Assembly (NCBI GenBank): GCA_023251875.1
Contig: JAHEXY010000003.1
Location: forward strand, 372,001-436,000
Direction of reading: 5' to 3'
Length of the DNA: 64,000 nt
Origin: Bacteroidota bacterium
Lineage (GTDB): Bacteria > Bacteroidota > Bacteroidia > JAHEXY01
Within the stretch, counting starts at the first letter, position 1, and each line of letters starts with the position of its first letter. This document shows, piece after piece, positions 11,531 through 54,119 of this stretch. Under the pieces are notes generated by a model, which was given only the letters and a program-made list of their open reading frames with translations, did not search any database and was not told the origin of the DNA. A program made the translations under genes and the position numbers.

Positions 11531-11622
11531 ATGAAATAGCCATGCACCGAACCAGTGCACAAACACTGATAAACATTGAATGGCGTATACCATATGACTT
11601 TAAAAAAATAAATAATGCACAT
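11531..11622 (+). repeat. Dispersed ~90-bp intergenic element, copy A
   Basis: This segment starts ATGAAATAGCC, contains CAAACACTGAT and GGCGTAT, and ends directly at the ATG of nuoA. Closely similar copies lie at 42685-42772 and 53149-53237. Read in frame, it gives a spurious N-terminal extension containing NIEWRIPYDF before the true NuoA start. Confidence 0.8.
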
Positions 11623-11994
11623 ATGAATCCTACCAGTTTACCTATTGATTATTTACCTATATTTTTTGTTTTTTTAGTTGCGGCAGGCTTTGTCGTGGGC
11701 ACTATGTTGGTTTCGCATTTTTTAGGACCAAAACGCAATACAAAAATTAAACTCGACACATTTGAATGTGGTATTGAATCGAAAGGCAATGCCCGCGTTC
11801 CCTTCTCAATTAAATATTTTATCGTAGCCATTTTATTTGTATTGTTTGATGTAGAAGTAATTTTCATGTATCCTTGGGCGGTAAATTTTAAAGAACTAGG
11901 TATGACAGGTTTTGTTGAAATGCTTTTATTTATGGCATTTTTACTTGCCGGATTTTATTACATCATTAAAAAAGGAGCATTAAAATGGGAGTAG
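11623..11994 (+). CDS. nuoA: NADH-quinone oxidoreductase subunit A
   Basis: A 123-residue NuoA, a small membrane subunit of respiratory complex I with three transmembrane helices (near 8-30, 62-84, 92-112). The family loop between helices one and two is present: KLDTFECGIESKG, with the conserved Cys, and then IKYFIVAILFVLFDVEVIF. I chose ATG 11623 because the 27 codons upstream in frame lie inside a dispersed intergenic repeat and are not conserved family sequence. It heads the nuoABC group; nuoB starts 102 bp downstream, the gap being filled by a hairpin repeat. Confidence 0.93.
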   Translation: MNPTSLPIDYLPIFFVFLVAAGFVVGTMLVSHFLGPKRNTKIKLDTFECGIESKGNARVPFSIKYFIVAILFVLFDVEVIFMYPWAVNFKELGMTGFVEMLLFMAFLLAGFYYIIKKGALKWE

Positions 11995-30054: not shown

Positions 30055-30136
30055 GCGGATGTGGCGTAATTGGCAGCCGCACCAGACTTAGGATCTGGCG
30101 CTGAAAGGCGTGGGGGTTCGAGTCCCTTCATCCGCA
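30055..30136 (+). tRNA. tRNA-Leu (anticodon UAG)
   Basis: Acceptor arms GCGGATG (30055-30061) and CATCCGC (30129-30135) pair fully, with discriminator A at 30136. The anticodon stem CCAGA/TCTGG encloses the loop CTTAGGA, giving anticodon TAG (reads CUA). A long variable arm (CGCTGAAAGGCG) and the T-arm GGGGTTCGAGTCCC fit a class II leucine tRNA. CCA is not encoded. Confidence 0.95.
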
Positions 30137-42772: not shown

Positions 42773-42867
42773 ATGAAAATTAATATTGGCTTGAAAATTA
42801 TTTCTACCTCTAATCTGGTTTATTCTGTTTTTGCACTTTTATTATTTATCTAAAATTAGCAACACAA

Positions 42868-53148: not shown

Positions 53149-53237
53149 ATGAAATAGCCAAACACTAACTTGCACAAACACTGATGAACATTAAGTGGCG
53201 TATTCCATATGACCTTTTAAAAACAAATAATATACAT
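53149..53237 (+). repeat. Dispersed ~90-bp intergenic element, copy C
   Basis: The same element as at 11531 and 42685. It begins ATGAAATAGCC, includes CAAACACTGATGAACATT and ends at the ATG of the next gene (53238). As in copy A, it is open in frame with that gene (NIKWRIPYD), producing a false upstream start at 53184. Confidence 0.82.
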
Positions 53238-54119
53238 ATGAAAATTATACTCATTACCGGTATTAATGGATTTTTAGGTAGCCATTTGGCCAAAACATTA
53301 TCAAAAAACTATACCATTATTGGCCTAGCCAGTTCAAAAGAGAATCTATACCGACTTCAAGATTATTCATTTAAAATTTACACAACACAAGATAATTTAG
53401 AAGACATTTTTCGTGAAAACGAAATATTTGCAATCATTCATGCAGCAACAGTTTATAAAAGAAACAATGATCCGGTTGAAAAACTAATCAATACTAATAT
53501 TCTTCTTCCCGTTAGATTATATGAATTTGCAAAAAAATATAAAGTAAAAAGTTTTTTGAATTCAGATACTTTTTTTAATGATTCCAATTACACGCATAAA
53601 TATTTACCTGAATACACCTTATCAAAAAAACATGTGATTGAATGGTTAAAAATGATACAAAGTGAAGTGATACTAATAAATATGAAAATTTTTCACATGT
53701 ATGGACCTCATGATGCTCAAAATAAGTTTATACCAAATATAATTTCAACATTGGTTGAAAATAAACCAAATATAGATTTGTCGCCCGGTGGGCAAACAAG
53801 AGATTTTGTATATATAGACGATGTAGTTGCGGCATATAAAATTGTACTGGATAAACAATCTACTTTTACAAATGCCTTCACAGAATTTGAAATTGGTACA
53901 GGTAAATCAACATCAATAAAAGAAATAGTTTTGGCTATTAAAGAAATTTCAAAAAGTAAAACACAACTATCATTTGGGGCAATTCCTTATAATGAAAATG
54001 AAATAATGGAATCAGAAGCAAAAAACACTGAATTGCATAAACTAGGATGGACTCCTTTATATAATATTACCGAAGGCTTAAGTATTTTAGTTAATGTTTG
54101 CAAAAAACAATATGCCTAA
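53238..54119 (+). CDS. SDR family CDP-dideoxyhexose synthase-like (RfbJ/RfbS-type)
   Basis: A 293-residue extended SDR. NAD(P)-binding motif ILITGINGFLGSHLAK, the active-site pair in YTLSKKH (YxxxK), and FHMYGPHDAQNKFIPNII, GGQTRDFVYIDDVVAAY. Placed directly after RfbH and E3 and before RfbF/RfbG, it probably reduces C4 of the 3,6-dideoxy-4-keto sugar to give CDP-abequose or CDP-paratose. Which epimer cannot be told from sequence by eye. The start is ATG 53238; the 18 codons upstream belong to the dispersed repeat. Confidence 0.83.
   Translation: MKIILITGINGFLGSHLAKTLSKNYTIIGLASSKENLYRLQDYSFKIYTTQDNLEDIFRENEIFAIIHAATVYKRNNDPVEKLINTNILLPVRLYEFAKKYKVKSFLNSDTFFNDSNYTHKYLPEYTLSKKHVIEWLKMIQSEVILINMKIFHMYGPHDAQNKFIPNIISTLVENKPNIDLSPGGQTRDFVYIDDVVAAYKIVLDKQSTFTNAFTEFEIGTGKSTSIKEIVLAIKEISKSKTQLSFGAIPYNENEIMESEAKNTELHKLGWTPLYNITEGLSILVNVCKKQYA

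Follow-up and report, generated by a model that had tools for sequence, protein, structure and literature searches.

The 64,000-nucleotide stretch of DNA analysed here (the window) carries three full-length copies of a short repeat, all on the forward strand, which share their ends and a conserved core, as the original prediction had it; the core has three matches in the window and none is expected from 100 shuffles. The copies had been described as stopping at an ATG. This is correct for the start codons of nuoA (11623) and of an SDR gene (53238) and for a 26-codon frame before pseI, but the common boundary is ATGAA and not ATG alone, and the true unit extends five bases beyond the ends first proposed. 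Each copy thus measures 93–97 bp, with ATGAA at either boundary. The features are as follows:

11531–11627, forward: copy 1, ATGAA to ATGAA inclusive, its right end being the nuoA start (covariance model, 103 bits; alignments)
11531–11535, forward: left ATGAA of copy 1 (TTCAT on the opposite strand), the same 5 bp that tandem copies have in common
11539–11543, forward: GCCAT, 5' side of the outer stem of copy 1, with its partner ATGGC at 11580–11584 (pair counts)
11544–11547 and 11555–11558, forward: GCAC and GTGC, the hairpin inside the outer stem of copy 1 (pair counts)
11591–11596, forward: internal CATATG of copy 1, with its partner, the terminal CATATG, at 11620–11625 (98 of 116 copies perfectly complementary, five different pairings)
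11607–11612, forward: A-rich block of copy 1, at -11 to -16 from the nuoA ATG (A frequencies in 174 copies)
11623–11627, forward: right ATGAA of copy 1, insertion target and nuoA start codon (nuoA starts of relatives)
11623–11994, forward: nuoA, 123 aa
42685–42777, forward: copy 2, in which the AT of the internal CATATG is lost (covariance model, 90 bits; alignment)
42773–42853, forward: 26-codon frame opening at the right ATG of copy 2, upstream of pseI (42868); probably not a gene
53149–53242, forward: copy 3, its right end being the SDR gene start (covariance model, 97 bits)
53238–54119, forward: SDR/NAD-dependent epimerase-like gene, 293 codons (name assigned from the N-terminus only)

A dispersed family bounded by ATGAA

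With a covariance model (cut-off E 0.01 or better) we found about 64 dispersed copies in the window's own genome (G000), where BLAST gave 41 matches. As first suggested, the element is not random junk. It is 86–105 bp long (143 copies), too short for a transposase gene. Oriented copies run from the left end ATGAAATAGCC to the right end CATATGAA; their orientation is fixed, and 57 of the 64 own-genome copies end in an exact ATGAA, with no fixed base after it (A 38, T 15, C 3, G 1). Where copies stand in tandem, the overlap is precisely this pentamer, as at L053 (1411–1505, 1501–1596, and 1592–1694). The five-base overlap and the free base that follows identify ATGAA as the junction unit. The element has no terminal inverted repeat (mean 4.9 of 15 matches versus 3.9 in shuffled sequences; 143 copies).

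Several variants accompany the main form. A second subfamily within G000 has the right end AAATTATTTTCAGATGAA or one near it (L039, L040, L158, L160, and L162), and arrays in genome G030 contain a right arm with about 50 extra bases (ATGCTTTAGCATTCTTGAGTTCCTTAAAGG...) ahead of the usual end (L064 261–354, L225 1937–2030, L233 1954–1864, and L236 1507–1600). One copy (L218) is split by about 90 bp of other, non-coding sequence.

The element is spread across many families of one class. The covariance model detected it in 39 of 295 sampled genomes of the same class and in 13 of 395 genomes of a phylum-wide draw, all 13 from this class; both figures include the own genome and are lower bounds, with few candidates scored per genome. 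BLAST with one copy as the query was positive for 6 of 60 genomes, again including the own. Phage, plasmid, and viral collections yielded no copies with one query each (an exact pattern for the viral one), and a scan of genome contigs with one pattern gave no match.

Insertion at ATGAA and the position of start codons

Two empty sites document the insertion. At the first, a copy in G005 stands before a gene beginning MKKIFIVLAFSF, and the orthologous site in the sister species G088, with flanks 88–90% identical, is empty: the leader there ends ...CTGTTTTTC and the gene starts ATGAAAAAG, giving the junction ...GTTTTTC/ATGAAAAAG. Judged from this alignment, the difference is an insertion of about 91 bp at the native start codon. 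In G005 the native leader is displaced by about 91 bp upstream, the start codon is unchanged, and the element now fronts the gene. At the second site, a G030 copy breaks a RAYT-like transposase gene at the codons AAT GAA; joining the flanks at a single ATGAA restores the reading frame, and two G030 paralogues (L084 and L090) are uninterrupted, with ATGCG and ATGCA at the matching position. A further locus, L204, had no clear orthologue. G005 and G088 also have one filled site in common (L077 and L197, flanks 92–94% identical), showing that some insertions are old. The inner hairpins of the two copies at this locus (L077 2072–2176 and L197 2981–3081) differ, which looks as though one had been replaced by another in situ.

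The same reading applies to copy 1 of the window. The element precedes nuoA in none of 80 relatives, and at least 30 of the 51 relatives' genes that were matched from residue 1 begin with ATGAA; the most plausible reading of copy 1 is therefore an insertion at the native start of nuoA. ATGAA is present at both element ends and once in the empty site, as would be seen with a retained target or with a duplication of 5 bp. A duplication would be the mark of a miniature element (MITE) moved by a cut-and-paste (DDE) transposase, with ATGAA as the invariable duplicated target; this we regard as improbable, given the lack of terminal inverted repeats and a pentamer that is identical in 57 of 64 copies, unlike ordinary target duplications. 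That the element is mobile and has ATGAA as its target is, in our judgement, almost certain.

Of the 60 own-genome copies without another copy directly after them, 40 have a terminal ATG that opens an ORF of at least 60 codons. Only 59 of the 343 other ATGAA sites in the window do so (17%; binomial p 3e-17), but the proportion rises to 30 of 66 (45%; binomial p 0.001) among ATGAA sites that are non-coding or start-proximal. Across all loci fetched, again excluding copies followed by another copy, 103 of 142 ATGAA-ending copies open such an ORF (40/54 in G000 and 63/88 in other genomes). Since the excess over non-coding sites is modest, special targeting is not required: the start-codon position results mainly from the ATGAA target and from the loss of damaging insertions in genes, with a small excess remaining.

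The original prediction took the element for a portable 5' leader and named copies unrelated to start codons as evidence against this. Such evidence exists in part: 20 of the 60 copies open no ORF of at least 60 codons. These, the one in-gene copy in a relative, and the 80 nuoA relatives without the element indicate that the start codon is the insertion target and not the element's own signal; portability in terms of position is upheld by the comparison of G005 with G088. The proteins downstream are varied and include, as named by eye from their N-termini, nuoA, UspA-like, RidA-like, permease-like, and response-regulator-like products; many have an apparent signal peptide starting at the terminal ATG.

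The alternative of a cis-regulatory RNA leader (riboswitch-like, or the site of a translational regulator), with copies that mark a regulon and are conserved for regulating it, would account for the 40 of 60 copies directly before an ORF, for a covarying folded structure that includes the AUG, and for a right end with an A-rich initiation context. We consider it very improbable nonetheless, because the genes behind it are of many kinds as judged from their N-termini, the element is absent from the orthologous G088 start and from nuoA of 80 relatives, one copy lies inside a coding sequence, and the copies form tandem arrays. Moreover, Rfam has no match to the element; its sole match in the window is an ordinary tRNA (30055–30136).

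In two window copies the element had been noted to read in frame into the gene, encoding NI(E/K)WRIPYD. The frame is indeed open upstream for 44 codons in copy 1 and 23 in copy 3, but this is not a property of the family: the 40 gene-start copies have a median of 8 open codons upstream, at least 28 in only 2 of 40, and lengths distributed 16/14/10 modulo 3. The in-frame peptide is a coincidence, and a conserved N-terminal extension is ruled out by these frame statistics. Gene callers may nevertheless extend genes into the element; the longest nuoA ORF would begin at 11542.

Folding and a candidate transposition mechanism

RNAalifold on a MAFFT alignment returned only 3 pairs, and the two structures tested here were drawn by eye after that result. 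In the outer stem, GCCAT/ATGGC, 93.7% of cells are paired (67 aligned copies), with C-G to T-A changes present, and the hairpin inside it varies widely between genomes (TGCAC..GTGCA, TCACGCC..GGCGTGA, or TATACC..GGTATA). For each of the two structures the covariation score exceeds those of all 500 shuffles. Sliding the 3' partners by +1 leaves just 8–9% of cells paired, but it yields similar numbers of doubly changed cells (18 versus 19 in one structure, 20 versus 17 in the other), so that these counts are weak by themselves; in the second structure, 22 of 500 shuffles have at least as many pairs with changes on both sides.

The clearest covariation evidence comes from the arm at the ATG end. 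Here, an internal CATNTG and the terminal CANATG are perfectly complementary in 98 of 116 copies and in five pairings (CATATG/CATATG 57, CATCTG/CAGATG 22, CATGTG/CACATG 16, others 3), counted as copies and not as independent events, with 61 of the 177 ATGAA-ending copies omitted as their internal block was not found. For six of seven copies, the TTCAT strand as single-stranded DNA folds better than its shuffled versions (z -1.65 to -4.40), the exception being copy 3 of the window (z +1.12).

On this strand, TTCATATG at the left junction and TATTTCAT at the right end are both possible pairing partners of the internal block CATATGGAATA; in copy 1, the internal CATATG shares positions with the block that is complementary to the left end. 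We infer a guide role for this block. The guide-like block is swapped for a CCCGAT..ATCGGG-type hairpin in 25 of 174 copies, as identified by pattern, and the ends of these copies are still proper. Copies of this subset (L016, L019, L026, L037, and L038 in G000; L053, L062, L063, L064, and L065 in G030; L190 2151–2270 in G266) span genomes of different families, and the replacement looks like a hairpin swap or a nested insertion.

For the overall reading, probable though by no means secure, we favour a mobile element, non-autonomous and about 90 bp long, that targets ATGAA, is moved in trans by a Y1 enzyme, and is tolerated at gene starts. Insertion takes place directly 5' of ATGAA (on the opposite strand, 3' of TTCAT) and leaves ATGAA at both ends; a new copy can then enter the left ATGAA of an old one and build a tandem array. 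The mover would be a single-strand transposase of the Y1 (HUH) type, supplied in trans, and the internal block CANATGGAA(TA) on the TTCAT strand may pair with the TTCAT of both ends in the manner of IS200/IS605 guides. Insertions elsewhere in genes would be lost. Those at start codons would be tolerated, since the codon itself is kept and the inserted sequence finishes with a Bacteroidota-type leader that is A-rich and free of Shine-Dalgarno sequences. For the Y1/HUH mechanism itself, which we propose by analogy, the balance tips only slightly in favour.

The arrays with their exact junctions, as well as the long imperfect bulged stem on one strand, would also suit a cassette of the integron attC kind, mobilised by a tyrosine recombinase that uses a folded single strand as its substrate. 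A short pentamer target scattered genome-wide and the lack of a conserved attC core recognisable by eye make this an unlikely account.

A search for the putative mobiliser returned 89 Y1_Tnp matches in 17 genomes (7 in the own genome, 25 in five relatives, and 57 in 11 others). The element is present at three of the 62 loci examined; one of these is an interrupted gene and the other two lie beside IS200-like genes with other end sequences, the G005 case being an orthologous neighbourhood common to G088. Covariance model and phmmer searches revealed no autonomous copy, that is, no Y1 gene with these ends, among the 62 loci. A right-end pattern matched 28 sites in G000 and 53 in G030 (0 in a reversed control), with no gene between two element halves among the loci looked at, and TnpB was not found in seven genomes. 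The IS200-like Y1 genes at L041–L046 of G000 are ringed, as seen by eye, by other short hairpin-like repeats that differ from gene to gene.

Among known systems, IS200/IS605 elements insert 3' of a fixed pentamer, TTGAT in the case of ISDra2 (PMC2806898, in part), and carry guide sequences that pair with their cleavage sites (PMC6006769, in part). The element resembles them, as far as these excerpts describe them, in one-strand insertion 3' of a fixed pentamer with fixed orientation, in its subterminal foldings, and in an internal sequence complementary to the ends. It differs in having neither tnpA nor tnpB, in a guide-like block of only 6–8 nt that serves both ends, and in the pairing of distant arms. 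PATEs, the palindrome-associated transposable elements of Haloquadratum, are likewise too short for a transposase and, in the portion of PMC3119063 drawn on here, share the lack of terminal inverted repeats, near-terminal palindromes, many divergent copies, and nested insertions. Unlike for PATEs, no IS605-type transposon with related ends was found (62 of the 89 Y1 loci examined), the ATGAA target coincides with start codons, and the host belongs to a different domain of life.

With REPs and REPtrons, and with TnpA_Y1 subclass 2.6 of Bacteroidetes, to which "atypical secondary structures" are ascribed (PMC6006769, in part), the element shares that it is a short folded repeat scattered through Bacteroidota genomes in which Y1 genes are present as well. 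However, the REP foot GT[AG]G is absent from both strands of the 67-copy consensus by eye, the element is about 90 bp long with a fixed target pentamer, and it was not found to flank a cognate gene at the 62 Y1 loci examined, where the two neighbouring copies are both beside IS200-like genes. By analogy, the element would work like a PATE or an IS200/IS605 derivative; with the REP foot missing, and with no transposase or IS605-type ends linked to it among the 62 Y1 loci, we assign it to none of these groups. The TAACTGA direct repeats of Beggiatoaceae, Cyanobacteria, and some Bacteroidetes, for which no insertion mechanism is evident in the available part of PMC4679880, are similarly dispersed just upstream of the start codons of unrelated genes, but they form heptamer arrays and not a 90-bp unit. 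A literature search, with Figure 7 and the supplements of PMC6006769 outside it, found no description of the element.

The inserted element as a possible leader

Where mobile elements usually disrupt genes or supply promoters, this element enters exactly at the boundary of leader and coding sequence. The protein is preserved, and such insertions number dozens per genome in many families of the class. Bacteroidota lack Shine-Dalgarno sequences, and the A-rich block on the gene side of the element sits where Bacteroidota place theirs, so the element may act as a portable leader. Adenine occupies -11, -12, and -13 in 97, 97, and 91% of 174 copies, compared to 52, 50, and 35% at 48 putative native starts (the first ATG of long ORFs in the window); -6 is A in 105 and -3 is C in 167 of the 174 copies. 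In the last 40 nt of 143 copies, the AUG lies in a weak stem (mean -2.8 kcal/mol). Initiation in Flavobacterium johnsoniae, a species without Shine-Dalgarno sequences, is favoured by A at -3, -6, -12, and -13 (PMC6847099, in part).

These features raise a further alternative, in which the mobile origin is the same but the start-codon copies are kept beyond mere tolerance for a useful leader, as a domesticated expression module. The enrichment of A at -11 to -13, where adenines promote initiation according to the same excerpt, and the 40 of 60 copies at gene starts compared to 30 of 66 other sites speak for it. The C at -3, disfavoured by the A-3 rule of that source, and the AUG within a weak stem speak against it, and the A-rich block could serve transposition only; overall, we hold domestication to be rather unlikely. 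That the inserted leader really changes or supports translation is, in our judgement, about as likely as not. A more speculative extension, which we put forward only tentatively, is a transposable element specialised for start codons, in which the end facing the gene has evolved to serve as a ready-to-use initiation region without a Shine-Dalgarno sequence; each insertion would then exchange the leader and spare the protein. If true, this would be a self-spreading 5'-UTR that rewires expression genome-wide, ATGAA being a very common gene start in an AT-rich bacterium. Beyond these readings, the family offers a natural experiment on translation start in Bacteroidota, with one leader before many unrelated genes and empty orthologues as controls.

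A promoter within the element was considered and set aside. The Bacteroidota -7 promoter consensus is TAnnTTTG. This motif occurs in 2 of 143 copies in the forward and in 2 of 143 in the reverse direction, and a one-base-longer form, TAnnnTTTG, is present in 63 of 143 reverse copies.
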